Source of the DNA: Bacteroidota bacterium
GTDB lineage: Bacteria > Bacteroidota > Bacteroidia > NS11-12g > UBA955
DNA: 64,000 nucleotides
NCBI GenBank assembly: GCA_023957335.1
Contig: JAMLHC010000004.1
Span: forward strand, 248,001-312,000
Direction: 5' to 3'
A model generated the notes under the pieces. That model did no database searches. It was not told the origin of the DNA and saw only the letters and a list, made by a program, of their open reading frames with translations. Shown piece after piece: positions 9,036-44,612 of the stretch (within the stretch, counting starts at the first letter, position 1; every line of letters starts with the position of its first letter). The position numbers and the translations under genes were made by a program.

Positions 9036-9175
9036 GTTTCGTAGTCACTGAGCGTAGTTGTTTTCTCGGTCGCTGATCGGTTTGTCCTGAGCGAAGTCGT
9101 TTTTCGGTCATTGAGCGTAGTCGAAATGCCCGACAAAACAGCAGCAGAAGTAGTCGAAGCGCCCGAGAAACCTCA
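9036..9175. repeat. Dispersed repeat family 1, degenerate cluster
   Basis: The gap between two genes holds several imperfect copies of the unit CTGAGCGTAGTCG. They lie near 9045-9060, 9066-9080, 9084-9099, 9100-9132 and 9150-9165, and the last two end in the family's terminal GAAATGCCCG or GAAGCGCCCG. All are in the same orientation. The same core occurs in inverted form elsewhere in the window. There is no coding potential beyond chance. Confidence 0.85.
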
Positions 9176-10370: not shown

Positions 10371-10476
10371 ACCCTTCGACTTACTTCGATTCCGTTCTTA
10401 ATATTGTACCCTTCGACTACGCTCAGGGTACGGGTTACGAACGCTCAGGGTACGGGTTACGAACGCTCAAGGTACG
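10371..10476. repeat. Dispersed repeat family 1, upstream of the GIY-YIG gene
   Basis: This cluster contains a perfect hairpin element at 10406-10431 with arms GTACCCT and AGGGTAC around TCGACTACGCTC. Two partial copies follow, each ending ACGAACGCTCAGGGTACG or a one-base variant. The 26-bp element recurs base for base at 10860-10885 and 27034-27059. Its inner core CGACTACGCTCAG is the reverse complement of the CTGAGCGTAGTCG unit used downstream of the same gene. Confidence 0.9.
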
Positions 10477-10488
10477 ATCTAATAAACA

Positions 10489-10800
10489 ATGAAAGGCTAT
10501 ACCTACATTCTACAATGTGCGGACGGCAGTTATTACACAGGCAGTACAAAGGATTTGGACATACGTATTGCTCAACATCAGTCTGGTGAAGGAGCAAACT
10601 ATACAGCTAAACATTTGCCTGTCAAGTTGGTATATTTTGAAGAATATGGAAGAATTGATGAAGCTTTCTATAGAGAAAAGCAAATTCAAGGTTGGAGTAG
10701 AAAGAAAAAAGAGGCTTTAATTGCAGGTCTAACAGAAGAATTAAAGGAGCTTGCAGAGTGTATTAACGAAACACATTCCAAGAATTATAAAAAGGAATAA
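10489..10800 (+). CDS. GIY-YIG domain endonuclease-like protein (UPF0213/YhbQ type)
   Basis: This 103-residue protein is essentially one GIY-YIG domain. YTYILQCADGSYYTGST (4-20) carries the two strand motifs, the arginine follows in DIRIAQHQSG, and the metal-binding glutamate lies in AFYREKQIQGWSRKKK. The family cleaves DNA, and stand-alone small members are frequent in Bacteroidota with unclear roles. There is no glycan function to expect. It is bracketed on both sides by clusters of repeat family 1 and is a plausible partner of those repeats (inference only). Confidence 0.88.
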   Translation: MKGYTYILQCADGSYYTGSTKDLDIRIAQHQSGEGANYTAKHLPVKLVYFEEYGRIDEAFYREKQIQGWSRKKKEALIAGLTEELKELAECINETHSKNYKKE

Positions 10801-11021
10801 GTACCCTTCGACTACGCATGATGTGTCCTTCGACTTCCTTCGACAACACTCTCAAAAATGTACCCTTCGACTACGCTCAGGGTACGGTTTTCGGTCGCTG
10901 AGCGTAGTCGGTTTTTCGGTCGCTGAGCGTAGTCGGTTTTTCGGTCGCTGAGCGTAGTCGGTTTTTCGGTCGCTGAGCGTAGTCGAAGTGCCCGTAAAAC
11001 CAAAGGAATCCGAAGCGCCCG
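10801..11021. repeat. Dispersed repeat family 1 with a four-unit tandem array, downstream of GIY-YIG
   Basis: It begins with a partial forward unit (10801-10819) and a perfect copy of the 26-bp hairpin element (10860-10885). Four head-to-tail inverted units TCGGTCGCTGAGCGTAGTCG follow at 10891, 10916, 10941 and 10966, a 25-bp period, closed by AAGTGCCCG. A further CGAAGCGCCCG lies at 11011-11021. Forward and inverted cores can pair over long range. Lack of unique spacers rules out CRISPR. Confidence 0.92.
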
Positions 11022-13063: not shown

Positions 13064-13339
13064 ATGAAACATCAAAATTCTGAACTTAGTACATTTATCA
13101 AAAGAAACTCTCATTTGTTTTGGTACACACCTGAGAATCTCAAAGAAGATATAAGCGAAGAATTACTTTTGGAGCAGGTGTTGAACTATGCTGATTTGCC
13201 AACCATTAAAGAATACTTTGAAATTGTTGGGTTAAATAATGCCAGTCGGATTTTTAAGAACCTGACCGGTAGAAAAAAGAATAATATTTATCCTGAAATC
13301 TACGCTTTATTTTCTGAATATTTTAATCGAAATGTATAA
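13064..13339 (+). CDS. Small DUF6922-like protein
   Basis: This 91-residue acidic protein opens with FIKRNSHLFWYTPENLKEDISEE and contains LPTIKEYFEIVG. I recognise it as the small protein that frequently precedes AbiEii-type nucleotidyltransferases in Bacteroidota. It overlaps the next gene by 8 bases, so the two form a coupled pair. By analogy with toxin-antitoxin operons it may be the antitoxin-like partner (inference). There is no catalytic motif and no membrane segment. Confidence 0.7.
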   Translation: MKHQNSELSTFIKRNSHLFWYTPENLKEDISEELLLEQVLNYADLPTIKEYFEIVGLNNASRIFKNLTGRKKNNIYPEIYALFSEYFNRNV

Positions 13340-13943
13340 GGATATACTTGATAAGAATCAATTAGAGTTATTACCGCTCATAAAAGAGTTCAAAAGAACT
13401 TTTTATTTGGTAGGAGGAACTGCTATTGCTTTGCAAATAGGGCATAGACGTTCTATTGATTTTGATTTGTTTAGGGATAAGCCACTGAACCATAAACTAA
13501 TTATAGATAAAATAAAGTCACATCAATATACTCCATTGATTACTCGTAGAGTAGAGGAACAAATTAATCTTGTTATTAATAATGTGAAACTGACTTTTTT
13601 TCAGTACCCATTTGAGATTAATAAAACAGAGGGTTTAGATGACATTATTTTAATGCCTGCTTTGATTGACCTAGCGGCTATGAAGGCTTATGCACTAGGA
13701 AGAAGATCAAAATGGAAGGATTATGTGGATTTATATTTTATTATTACTAAGTATTTTTCTGTGAGTGTAATATCAAAACGTGCTACCGAAATTTTTGAAG
13801 GACTTTTTTCTGAAAAACAGTTTAGAGCACAACTTTGTTTTTTTGAAGATATTGATTACACAGAAGAAGTGATTTATATGGGAAAAGAAATTTCTCAAAA
13901 AGAGATTCGAAATACCTTGACAGAGCTGGCTGTCCAATTTTAA
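13332..13943 (+). CDS. AbiEii/toxin-like nucleotidyltransferase
   Basis: This 203-residue protein carries the nucleotidyltransferase signature VGGTAIALQIGHRRSIDFDL, with the two metal-binding aspartates at D43 and D45. The later MKAYALGRRSKWKDYVDLYF segment is typical of the AbiEii/DUF1814 family. Characterised relatives are toxins of type IV toxin-antitoxin and abortive-infection systems that act on nucleotides or tRNA. Overlap with the small upstream gene supports a two-gene defence or addiction module. It is an insertion in an otherwise glycan-directed region and is followed by repeat family 1. Confidence 0.82.
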   Translation: MYKDILDKNQLELLPLIKEFKRTFYLVGGTAIALQIGHRRSIDFDLFRDKPLNHKLIIDKIKSHQYTPLITRRVEEQINLVINNVKLTFFQYPFEINKTEGLDDIILMPALIDLAAMKAYALGRRSKWKDYVDLYFIITKYFSVSVISKRATEIFEGLFSEKQFRAQLCFFEDIDYTEEVIYMGKEISQKEIRNTLTELAVQF

Positions 13944-13987: not shown

Positions 13988-14066
13988 GTTTTTCGGTCGC
14001 TGAGCGTAGTTTTTCGGTCGCTGAGCGTAGTTTTTCGGTCGCTGAGCGTAGTCGAAGCGCCCGAAA
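13988..14066. repeat. Repeat family 1, three-unit tandem array
   Basis: Three copies of TCGGTCGCTGAGCGTAG lie at 13993, 14014 and 14035, a 21-bp period rather than the 25-bp period seen at 10891. The last copy continues into TCGAAGCGCCCG (14052-14063). The 28 bp at 14036-14063 are identical to 27153-27180 inside a glycosyltransferase gene. Confidence 0.92.
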
Positions 14067-14093
14067 AATCATTGTCCCCACCTTGCCGCACTG

Positions 14094-26699: not shown

Positions 26700-28031
26700 T
26701 TGAGAATTATCCATTACTTCGTTGATGAAATCCGAACTCCTTTTGTTGCAGAGGACATCAGGAGAATAGCCGCTCGTTTTGAAGTGGTCTATTTGTTTTC
26801 TGTAGAAAAGTTAGAAGGGAAAGAAAATCTACCCGAGAATGTAATTGTGTATGAGGATTTCTTGGATTGGAAACAGTTTAAGCCTATGCAGATTGTCATA
26901 AAGAATTTGTTTTCTATCTTAGGGATTTACATTTCAGAATCTTGGGCATTAAAAAAGTTTCTGCCTTTCAAGAAAACAATTGCATTGATAAGTTCTAATA
27001 TTTTCAAAGCAGAACAAATTTTAGATATAGTTCGTACCCTTCGACTACGCTCAGGGTACGAACTACGGTCAGGGTACGAACTCACGAGCATTAATAGTGG
27101 TCTATATGCTCAAACGGAAGTTACATCACAATCGCTGAGCAAACCTACACCGCGGTCGCTGAGCGTAGTCGAAGCGCCCGCCTACTACTCCTTCTGGTTC
27201 TACGACTGCATCTACCTAGCTTGGATGAGAAAGAAAGGATGGATTGATAAAGCAGTTACACGGGCACATGGAGGAGATTTATTTGAAGAAAGAGGTTCAT
27301 TAAATGGGAAAACTTTATTGAGAAACTTTCAAACTAAATACCTTGATGCTGTTTTATCTGTTTCAGATGAAGGAACAGAATACCTTAAAAAAAGGTATCC
27401 TAAAGCAAAAAACAAGATTAAGACTGTATTTCTGGGAAGCCAAGATGCCGGAGAGAATCCATTTGAAAAAAAAAGTTTTACAATAGTAAGTTGTGCGAGA
27501 GTGCGTAATATTAAGCGCATACATAAAATAGCGGAGATGCTTCAATTTATTTCCTTTCCTATAACATGGATTCATATTGGTTCGGAAAACTTGGAAGCAA
27601 AGAATGACCCGACCATTTCCATTTATCTAAAGAATAAAGAAAAACTCAACCAGAATCCTAATGTTACTGTTGTGACCCAAGGTTTGATGAATAATCAAGA
27701 AGTTTTAAATCTGTATAAAAATACTCCAATCAATCTGTTTATTAGCTTGTCAGAAGCAGAGGGTATTCCAGTCAGTATGATGGAGGCGATTAGTTTTGGG
27801 ATTCCCATACTCTCAACAGATGTAGGAGGCTGCAAAGAAATTGTAAATGAAAAAACTGGAGTCTTAATACCTTTGGAAACTTCTATGAAAGAGGTAGCAG
27901 AGATTATAACGGAATTCAAGGATTCTTCAAAAAATACAATTGAATTTAGAGAAGGAGTAAGAAGATTTTGGGAGGAACATTTTGATGCGGATAAGAATTA
28001 CGGGAAATTGTTTGAGGAGATAGTTGGATAA
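26700..28031 (+). CDS. GT4-type glycosyltransferase carrying an in-frame repeat insertion
   Basis: This 443-residue protein starts at TTG. The C-terminal donor domain is intact: SEAEGIPVSMMEAISFGIPI with the E-x7-E pair, then STDVGGCKEIV and the FREGVRRFWEEHF tail. It is a paralogue of the enzyme at 7813-9030. Residues about 111-161 are not glycosyltransferase sequence. They are the translation of a repeat family 1 pair (27029-27180) inserted just before the conserved YYSFWFYDC strand, where the paralogue has CYSYWFNEW. The frame is preserved. Whether the enzyme still folds is open. Confidence 0.85.
   Translation: MRIIHYFVDEIRTPFVAEDIRRIAARFEVVYLFSVEKLEGKENLPENVIVYEDFLDWKQFKPMQIVIKNLFSILGIYISESWALKKFLPFKKTIALISSNIFKAEQILDIVRTLRLRSGYELRSGYELTSINSGLYAQTEVTSQSLSKPTPRSLSVVEAPAYYSFWFYDCIYLAWMRKKGWIDKAVTRAHGGDLFEERGSLNGKTLLRNFQTKYLDAVLSVSDEGTEYLKKRYPKAKNKIKTVFLGSQDAGENPFEKKSFTIVSCARVRNIKRIHKIAEMLQFISFPITWIHIGSENLEAKNDPTISIYLKNKEKLNQNPNVTVVTQGLMNNQEVLNLYKNTPINLFISLSEAEGIPVSMMEAISFGIPILSTDVGGCKEIVNEKTGVLIPLETSMKEVAEIITEFKDSSKNTIEFREGVRRFWEEHFDADKNYGKLFEEIVG
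27029..27180. repeat. Repeat family 1 inverted pair inserted inside a coding sequence
   Basis: A perfect 26-bp forward element (27034-27059; GTACCCT and AGGGTAC arms) is followed by a partial copy ending 27078. At 27153-27180 lies an inverted unit with CTGAGCGTAGTCGAAGCGCCCG that matches 14036-14063 over 28 bp. The middle contains a degenerate ATCGCTGAGC. No stop codon arises in the host frame. Confidence 0.92.
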
Positions 28032-28080: not shown

Positions 28081-29742
28081 ATGACTAAACAAGAGCTCAT
28101 ACAAAAAATAGTTGACTTAGAATGGGAAGATTTTGAAGTAAAAACTGCAGAATCTTCTGTTCCAAAATCGGCTTGGGAATCTGTTAGTGCTTTTTCAAAT
28201 TCGTCTGGTGGTTGGTTAATTTTTGGAATTGAGCAAATAGGTAAGAAATTTAATATTACAGGCGTTCATAATTCAGAAAAAATTGAACAAGACTTTTTGG
28301 TAACACTACGTAGCGGAGAGAAGTTTAACACAATAATTACTCCAGAATGCAAACGATATAAGTTTGAGGATAAAACAGTACTTGGGTTTTATATTTCTCC
28401 ATCAGGACAAAAACCAATTTATTTTAATAACAATCAACACAATACTTTCATTCGAAAAGGAAGTGCCGATTTAAGAGCGTCAAAATCTGAAGTTGATTAC
28501 CTATATAGAGATCAGACTTTTGGAGTTAGAACTTCTGAAATATTAGAAGATACAAGTTCCTCCTCTTTAAAAGTAAAATCAGTTCATGAATACAGGGATT
28601 ATATGTCTCGATTTAATCCTACAGTAGGTTATAATCAAAAAGAATTAAATGATTTCTTGACTAGTTTGCGCATTATAGATAAAGAAACCGAGCATTGTAC
28701 AGTTGCTGGATTGCTCTTCTTCGGACAAAGAGAACAAATAGAGCAGTTTTTTCCTGATTTTAGAATAGATTTATTAGAAATACCAGGAATATCATATAAT
28801 AGTTCTTCTTCACGATATACCTTTCGCTTAAATGAGGATGATTATGAAAATTTATGGGAAGCTTATTTTGAATGTTTTAGACGTTTAAGAAAAACAGTAG
28901 ATATTCAGTTTCAATTAACTTCCGAAGGTTTTGGAGAAGAATTGTCTCCGGGATTGAATGCAGTACGTGAGGTATTAGTAAATATGTTAATGCATGCCGA
29001 TTATTATTCAACGAGTTGCCCAAGAATACGTATTTTTACCAATCATATAGAATTTTATAATCCGGGGGGATTGCCAAAACCATTGAAAGAACTAAAGGAA
29101 AAAGATTTATCAATTCCTCGAAATCCCATCCTAGCAAAACTTTTTCGCATGGTAAAATTAGCTGAAAATGCAGGTTATGGTTTTGATAAAATTGAAAGTA
29201 ATTGGAAACGCTATAACCATACAAAACCTGAATATAATATTGACTTCGATTCTGTAATTATAAAAATGAAGATTGACGAAGTTATTAATGACGAAAATGT
29301 CGGTGTAGATGTCGGAATAAATGTCGGTGTAAATAATGTTTTGGAAATCATAGAGAAAACTCCGGGGATAAATTCAAAAGGAATTTTTTCCAATTTTGAT
29401 GTTACTAAAAGAACGGTGGAGCGTTGGATAGAAGAACTGCGTAATGAAGGAAAAATCGAATTTAAAGGAGCTCCCAAAACGGGAGGATACTATGTTAAAC
29501 CTATTACTAATGACAAATCGAATGTCGGTGTAAATGTCGGTGTGGATGTCGGAATAAATGTCGGTGTAAATAATGTTTTGGAAATCATAGAGAAAACTCC
29601 GGGGATAAATTCAAAAGGAATTTCTTTCAATTTTGATGTTACTCAAAGAACGGTGGAGCGTTGGATAGAACAATTACGAAATGAAGGGAAAATCGAATTT
29701 AAAGGAGCTCCCAAAACGGGAGGATATTTTTTGAAAGAGTAA
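28081..29742 (+). CDS. AlbA_2/RecG-like ATP-binding protein with duplicated winged-helix tail
   Basis: This 553-residue protein has an AlbA_2 domain (about 10-145; WEDFEVKTAESS, SGGWLIFGIEQIG) and a HATPase-like segment with LNAVREVLVNMLMHADYY and AENAGYGFDKIE. Its C-terminus has two nearly identical 79-residue units (from 406 and 485). Each has a V-G-V/V-G-I linker and a winged helix containing TPGINSKGI and RTVERWIE. DNA copies start at 29296 and 29533. Family 4 palindromes lie on both sides of the gene. It is probably a DNA-binding regulator or defence-related protein and a paralogue in architecture of 22662-23999. Confidence 0.85.
   Translation: MTKQELIQKIVDLEWEDFEVKTAESSVPKSAWESVSAFSNSSGGWLIFGIEQIGKKFNITGVHNSEKIEQDFLVTLRSGEKFNTIITPECKRYKFEDKTVLGFYISPSGQKPIYFNNNQHNTFIRKGSADLRASKSEVDYLYRDQTFGVRTSEILEDTSSSSLKVKSVHEYRDYMSRFNPTVGYNQKELNDFLTSLRIIDKETEHCTVAGLLFFGQREQIEQFFPDFRIDLLEIPGISYNSSSSRYTFRLNEDDYENLWEAYFECFRRLRKTVDIQFQLTSEGFGEELSPGLNAVREVLVNMLMHADYYSTSCPRIRIFTNHIEFYNPGGLPKPLKELKEKDLSIPRNPILAKLFRMVKLAENAGYGFDKIESNWKRYNHTKPEYNIDFDSVIIKMKIDEVINDENVGVDVGINVGVNNVLEIIEKTPGINSKGIFSNFDVTKRTVERWIEELRNEGKIEFKGAPKTGGYYVKPITNDKSNVGVNVGVDVGINVGVNNVLEIIEKTPGINSKGISFNFDVTQRTVERWIEQLRNEGKIEFKGAPKTGGYFLKE
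29296..29730 (+). repeat. Recent 237-bp tandem duplication in the AlbA_2 gene
   Basis: Bases 29296-29493 and 29533-29730 match almost throughout at an offset of 237 bp (79 codons). Each copy begins with short AATGTCGGTGT-type repeats. The few differences (for example TTTTCC against TTTCAA) suggest the duplication is recent. The frame is conserved, so the product gains a second linker and winged helix. Confidence 0.95.
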
Positions 29743-44523: not shown

Positions 44524-44559
44524 CGGGCGCTTCGACTACCCTTCGACTACGCTCAGGGC
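44524..44559. repeat. Repeat family 1, forward copy after the GT4 gene
   Basis: CGGGCGCTTCGACTAC is the reverse complement of the terminal part of inverted units seen at 14047-14063. It runs directly into CCTTCGACTACGCTCAGGG. This is the only place where family 1 sits beside family 2. Confidence 0.9.
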
Positions 44560-44612
44560 AAGTCGTTCAGCATTCACTCGATAAGATTATTCTGAGTTTT
44601 ATATTGGATGAT

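Follow-up and report, generated by a model that had tools for sequence, protein, structure and literature searches.

We consider it reasonably likely that the palindromic repeats surrounding a stand-alone GIY-YIG endonuclease gene in a Bacteroidota bacterium belong to a REPtron-like element, the enzyme of which would be the nuclease itself. The arrangement resembles the REPtron (RAYT/TnpA-REP) in its tagged imperfect hairpin, inverted pairs and dispersed copies, as well as in a gene for a cognate enzyme of the single-strand type that is flanked by hairpins and mostly present as one resident gene per genome (PMC8266576, PMC2817692). It differs in that the enzyme of the unit is of the GIY-YIG and not of the HUH/Y1 type and is the only gene in the unit, and in that the same genome also encodes a true RAYT, which has a palindrome of its own.

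The nuclease gene and the hairpin copies of the window

The window, i.e., the whole stretch of 64,000 nucleotides analysed, contains a gene for a UPF0213/COG2827-like protein. Profile search identified the GIY-YIG domain in its product with an E value of 3.9e-18 (65.9 bits versus a cut-off of 22.6), and sequence identity between the protein and YhbQ of E. coli amounted to 33% (E 2e-13). Its solved relatives are 1zg2 and 1ywl; YhbQ and these UPF0213 proteins share fold and family with it. The catalytic-type residues Y6, Y16, R26, H30 and E63 were conserved at 99-100% in 81 homologues. An AlphaFold2 model of the protein (pLDDT 85.9) matched UPF0213 proteins best among PDB folds, followed by Slx1. 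The domain, the catalytic-type residues and the predicted fold together assign the protein to the GIY-YIG superfamily. The source genome (2.77 Mb, 7 contigs) contains no second stand-alone GIY-YIG gene, its other PF01541 match being a 602-aa UvrC-like frame. Unlike the window gene, yhbQ of E. coli K-12 directly adjoins coding sequences on either side in the region as annotated, and a hairpin of the window kind is not noted there.

Copies of one 26-bp palindrome lie on either side of the gene. The core TTCGACTNCGCTCAG occurred eight times in the window with at most one mismatch, against 0.00 occurrences expected from dinucleotide-preserving shuffles, and 15 times as an exact match in the whole source genome, where the reversed control gave none. 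Because copies ring the gene and exceed expectation, the initial annotation, which had described a GIY-YIG gene bracketed by forward and reverse-complement palindromic repeats, holds, and it had placed them correctly. Its comparison to the forward-plus-inverted pairs of REPINs was likewise supported by pairs such as the one at 27029 and 27152. In DNA folding, the hairpin copies of the window formed a stem of at least 7 bp with an asymmetric T/CTC internal loop, a CG clamp and a 4-nt loop, while a single downstream unit of the 25-bp array (10965-10995) folded no better than its shuffles. An Rfam search returned no match. Two further genes of the window were located close to repeat copies, encoding an AbiEii-type nucleotidyltransferase (13332-13943) and a Schlafen AlbA_2 protein (28081-29742).

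Table 1. Positions of the nuclease gene, the hairpin copies and the hairpin-bearing glycosyltransferase gene in the window
Feature	Position	Strand	Details
Degenerate reverse copies, preceding gap	9041..9165	-	
Degenerate forward copy of the hairpin core	10371..10395	+	CTTCGACT at 10374
Upstream hairpin GTACCCTTCGACTACGCTCAGGGTAC	10406..10431	+	Folds: 7-bp stem, T/CTC internal loop, CG clamp
Tandem array of partial units (hairpin 3' half), period 22	10419..10476	+	TRF, 2.6 copies
Stand-alone GIY-YIG endonuclease gene, 103 aa, UPF0213/COG2827-like	10489..10800	+	PF01541
Degenerate forward copies right behind the stop codon	10801..10845	+	CTTCGACT at 10806 and 10828
Downstream forward hairpin GTACCCTTCGACTACGCTCAGGGTAC, arms as in the upstream copy	about 10860..10885	+	
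Array of four reverse-complement units CGGTCGCTGAGCGTAGTCG, period 25	about 10888..10990	-	TRF, 3.9 copies, 100% matches
Reverse copies, later gap	13998..14070	-	
Glycosyltransferase group 1 gene, host of the in-frame hairpin pair	26700..28031	+	PF00534, orthologue alignment
Forward hairpin, 12-bp stem, inside the glycosyltransferase gene	27029..27064	+	DNA fold -11.7 kcal/mol, z -5.95
Reverse partner of the 27029 hairpin, same gene, in frame	27152..27181	-	
Copy apparently nested within another copy	44530..44560	+	

Association of the hairpins with the gene across genomes

Eighty homologues from named genomes (nine phyla by record title), picked by protein alone, were searched for the general hairpin form CTTCG-N4-34-CTCAG. 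This palindrome was present within 400 bp of the gene at 75 of the 80 loci, and on both sides at 52 of them; its density fell from 3.47 per kb over the initial 500 bp to 0.02-0.3 per kb beyond 1 kb. The five loci that did not contain the general form may bear other variants, or their flanks may be cut; the sequences of L041 and L073 stop 130 bp past the gene. A motif-free comparison gave exact matches of at least 14 bp between both flanks in 62% of the loci, and at 2% of control positions. The exact core was restricted to eight genomes of the family (n = 70); in five of these (G000, G003, G006, G009 and G040), the GIY-YIG gene has a copy no more than about 130 bp away. Further homologues of the family carried different palindromes at the same place beside the gene.

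Most copies are intergenic, as would be expected if transcription terminators or, in the null hypothesis of the initial annotation, repeats just collected in gaps. The gaps adjacent to the gene contained a hairpin in 109 of 132 cases (83%), compared with 24 of 435 (5.5%) for the other gaps of the same loci (Fisher p about 1e-68). The contrast was present in every gap-length class, and length-matched gaps beside other genes carried hairpins 10 to 25 times less often; the repeats are thus not equally common beside random genes, the outcome on which the gene-repeat link was to be abandoned. Moreover, copies are also located within genes (glycosyltransferase, hsdM and hsdR), the terminator search found no terminator-like site within the window unit, and only 10 of 270 hairpins were followed by five or more T. 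On this comparison of loci, the link between gene and hairpin is real and general and is not explained by accumulation in gaps, an account that we regard as barely conceivable.

The regular presence of a hairpin up- or downstream within 400 bp of the gene at those 75 loci would also suit an autoregulatory site, either an operator or a site of mRNA cleavage, with the distant copies as by-products. However, the position, number and orientation of the hairpins, including the inverted pairs, vary widely among loci, and the far copies are of the same type and also occur inside unrelated genes, which makes this explanation quite improbable.

A looser relationship was found between the gene and the number of copies in a genome. 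Among 295 genomes of the class, the core was present in 72 of the 126 with a homologue (E<=1e-10) versus 35 of the 169 without one, which corresponds to an odds ratio of 5.1 with a p of about 1e-10, not corrected for phylogeny. Conversely, G109, G086 and G116 contained 162, 106 and 23 core copies, respectively, and no A1-type gene even at an E value of 0.1. The expectation that copy number tracks the GIY-YIG clade was therefore borne out only in part, as a real but loose link, and the idea that copy number depends strictly on the gene was rejected. The repeats seem to outlive the gene, as REPs do, or another enzyme serves them.

Alternatively, the hairpins could be ordinary REPs whose movement depends on a RAYT (Y1 transposase) encoded at another site of the genome. 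A RAYT-like gene does exist in the source genome (G000:C3:325569-325913, locus L151, G000:C3:324569-326913), but it is flanked by a palindrome of its own, AACCCCGAAGGGG, which is unlike the window hairpin. No hairpin of the CTTCG..CTCAG form was found beside the gene at any of nine RAYT loci, and a Y1 search of G109, despite its 162 core copies, gave no match. A RAYT as the mobiliser of the window hairpins was accordingly rejected, and we hold this explanation to be very improbable. Neither window-type nor CGTC hairpins were found beside the gene at the UvrC loci or at the nine RAYT loci. A related GIY-YIG gene at L206 (G202:C1:320000-325000) had a further, different palindrome, GGTCTCGACTCCGCTCGACC, on either side.

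Hairpin fold, tag and insertion into coding sequences

All hairpin variants share the elements CTTCG...CTCAG (CTGAG...CGAAG on the other strand), whereas the outer arms and the tip are variable, the latter being of the type RCTNCG, RCAAG or AGAGC, or a longer sub-hairpin. When the nearest hairpin of each of the 75 loci was considered, arm positions 1-4 paired in 85, 87, 73 and 60% of cases, in comparison to 33, 47, 54 and 34% after the 3' arms had been dealt out anew. The pairs included G-C, C-G and A-T, i.e., the variation was compensated. Since pairing exceeds that of shuffled arms and all pair types are used, it is the fold and not the arm sequence that is kept. In the CTGAG orientation, position -5 was G in 71 of 74 loci (96%) and position -6 was C in 72%. 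The partner of the conserved G was C in only 27 of the 71 loci, so that this G is better understood as belonging to a 5' CG tag, specific to one strand, at the hairpin foot. RAYTs require a GTAG tag (PMC8266576), to which the CG tag of the window type is comparable; it differs from the REPtron tag in that the foot reads C (72%) G (96%) and is followed directly by the stem.

The distribution of hairpin types on the protein tree required 20 changes, versus a mean of 31 and a minimum of 26 after shuffling, the tree being short (99 columns) and weakly resolved. The 16- and 15-mer length classes required eight changes versus 17.9 after shuffling. Two genomes encoded two GIY-YIG paralogues each, and each paralogue had different repeats (L014/L029 in G026, L013/L030 in G003). 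The initial annotation had also proposed to test whether the sequence variant tracks the GIY-YIG clade, and the distribution of types on the tree agrees with such a link. The compared loci thus demonstrate a pairing of gene clade with hairpin class, as well as selection for the fold and the strand-specific tag.

Within coding sequences, the repeats are translated into peptides such as SLSGVEG, YPSTTLRV, HPEPVEG and FDSAQ. Ten orthologues of the window glycosyltransferase aligned on both sides of the hairpin pair and did not contain the repeat-coded stretch; as loop length varies in the family at this point, the insert is tolerated there. A single hairpin, translated as CHPEPVEGSK, was located inside hsdM of L056 and was absent from L039 and L055. 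One site in hsdR was found in three states. In L040 it contains no insert and reads FQTFMSGNDKDGNPEPYFGEYP, in L104 a hairpin and an inverted hairpin are located at the same point, and in L105 a hairpin, a complete GIY-YIG frame and an inverted hairpin are all part of one open 904-aa frame. The insert of L105 comprises about 397 bp replacing 28 bp; its borders, and with them any target site duplication of the kind made by MITEs, can be placed only within some bases. Read from the aligned sequences, this series has the pattern expected when an autonomous unit and a short, non-autonomous form of it occupy the same site; the L104 pair might be a decayed unit, and the three loci come from distantly related bacteria. 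These alignments demonstrate that hairpins, and at least once a whole hairpin-gene-hairpin unit, were historically inserted into coding sequences.

Type I restriction genes (hsdM/hsdR) were present in the fetched flank of 20 of the 80 loci, and within 1.3 kb of the GIY-YIG gene at about a dozen (e.g., L039, L046, L055, L056 and L105; L033-L112). In L205:2357-5917 (reverse complement, G074:C65), a GIY-YIG domain is in frame in an HsdR-like 1187-aa frame that lacks these hairpins.

At several loci, the nuclease frame continues through the hairpins into the next gene, namely hsdS (L046), a nucleotidyltransferase (L204) or a GHMP kinase (L059, L064 and L102). The gene locus itself was syntenic over many kb between genera (L053/L059/L064, L050/L090 and L074/L087), and no genome of the 70-genome family or the 295-genome class contained several near-identical copies of the gene. 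Transposition of the whole unit is for these reasons rare, and the gene is mostly resident, as RAYTs are. A scan of IMG/VR gave 45 pattern matches, none of which was a relative, and accordingly there was no sign of carriage by phages. The mobile unit suggested by the initial annotation was recovered as a complete insertion in hsdR of the relative L105, although the gene unit is no frequent traveller. These patterns suggest a mostly vertically inherited gene, with the hairpins as the more mobile part.

Proposed mechanism and relation to other repeat systems

In the REPtron-like element that we favour, each nuclease clade has, as the comparison of loci shows, a hairpin of its own. Its elements here are a 5'-CG tag, a variable stem of at least 4 bp, CTGAG, a tip that varies, CGAAG and the complement of the stem, and the copies are scattered singly, in tandem arrays or as inverted pairs. 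The protein would recognise, by its tag and internal loop, the folded single strand, which may be exposed at the replication fork, in DNA uptake or by cruciform extrusion, and would then cut the folded hairpin strand. Such binding and cutting is plausible for a member of the GIY-YIG family with a fold near that of Slx1, a branched-DNA nuclease. Since GIY-YIG enzymes act on DNA by hydrolysis and not by joining, strand transfer is left to the host, whose repair or copying at the break would spread the hairpins as non-autonomous elements and, rarely, the complete autonomous unit.

The closest known parallel is the Ssn family of Neisseria meningitidis, reportedly described in Nature Communications in 2025 as GIY-YIG site-specific single-strand nucleases with cognate NTS repeats. 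In Neisseria, Ssn is said to cut its cognate sequences only in single strands and to modulate transformation. Ssn reportedly shares with the window system a small stand-alone GIY-YIG protein, many cognate genomic copies and homologue-specific sequences; the CG tag, the CTGAG/CGAAG loop, the REPIN-like pairs and the unit insertions are not known to be among its features. Judged by its sequence, the window system fits the description of a stand-alone GIY-YIG gene with a repeated cognate sequence; it is a hairpin family of the REP type, and the GIY-YIG protein paired with it is probably of the Ssn kind.

The function could be that of Ssn without any mobilisation, i.e., a site-specific single-strand nuclease whose scattered sites restrict or shape DNA uptake and recombination (natural transformation), with repeats that spread otherwise and are kept as sites. 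The window protein is likewise a member of a stand-alone GIY-YIG family of this kind, and the tag, the hairpin and the paired clade and repeat types would fit single-strand recognition. On its own, however, this account leaves unexplained both the crowding of repeats at the nuclease gene and the complete hairpin-gene-hairpin unit in hsdR, and we consider it unlikely; as a second role, an Ssn-type function is compatible with the REPtron-like element.

A second GIY-YIG clade (relatives of L029; L184-L203, L029 and L131) was accompanied by CGTC-tagged palindromes within 400 bp at 14 of 22 loci, with a density of 6.8 per kb within 400 bp versus 0.50 per kb farther out. Their CGTC tag, stem of 8-9 bp starting from A and short loop are those of CGTC REPs. 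CGTC-type hairpins (CGTC/TGTC/CCTC tag, AT-initial stem) near clade-A genes did not exceed the background (0.03 per kb). For CGTC-tagged REPs, which the literature describes as orphans, Di Nocera et al. 2013 found no transposase; in their work, CGTC-1 of Neisseria corresponds to the dRS3 repeats (PMC3733652). The window hairpins share with this superfamily (PMC3733652) the tagged palindromes in Bacteroidota and other bacteria, the dimers, the intragenic copies and the lack of a RAYT link, but have neither the CGTC tag nor the AT-initial stem. The literature searched contained nothing on the core sequence or on a link between GIY-YIG proteins and REPs. New here are the hairpin class, the evidence of insertion and the link to the orphan CGTC REPs.

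We put forward tentatively, with slightly more doubt than belief, that a second widespread REP system has GIY-YIG nucleases as its dedicated enzymes, which cut tagged single-strand hairpins and drive the dispersal of hairpins and, rarely, of units. A protein of 103 aa and an oligonucleotide of 30 nt make the question testable. REP palindromes are among the commonest bacterial repeats, and the RAYT has been the only enzyme type tied to them; here, two unrelated hairpin classes each surround their own clade of stand-alone GIY-YIG genes. If the proposal is true, it would account for a large class of repeats that litters predicted proteins in Bacteroidota, and the orphan CGTC-tagged REPs would gain their missing enzyme.
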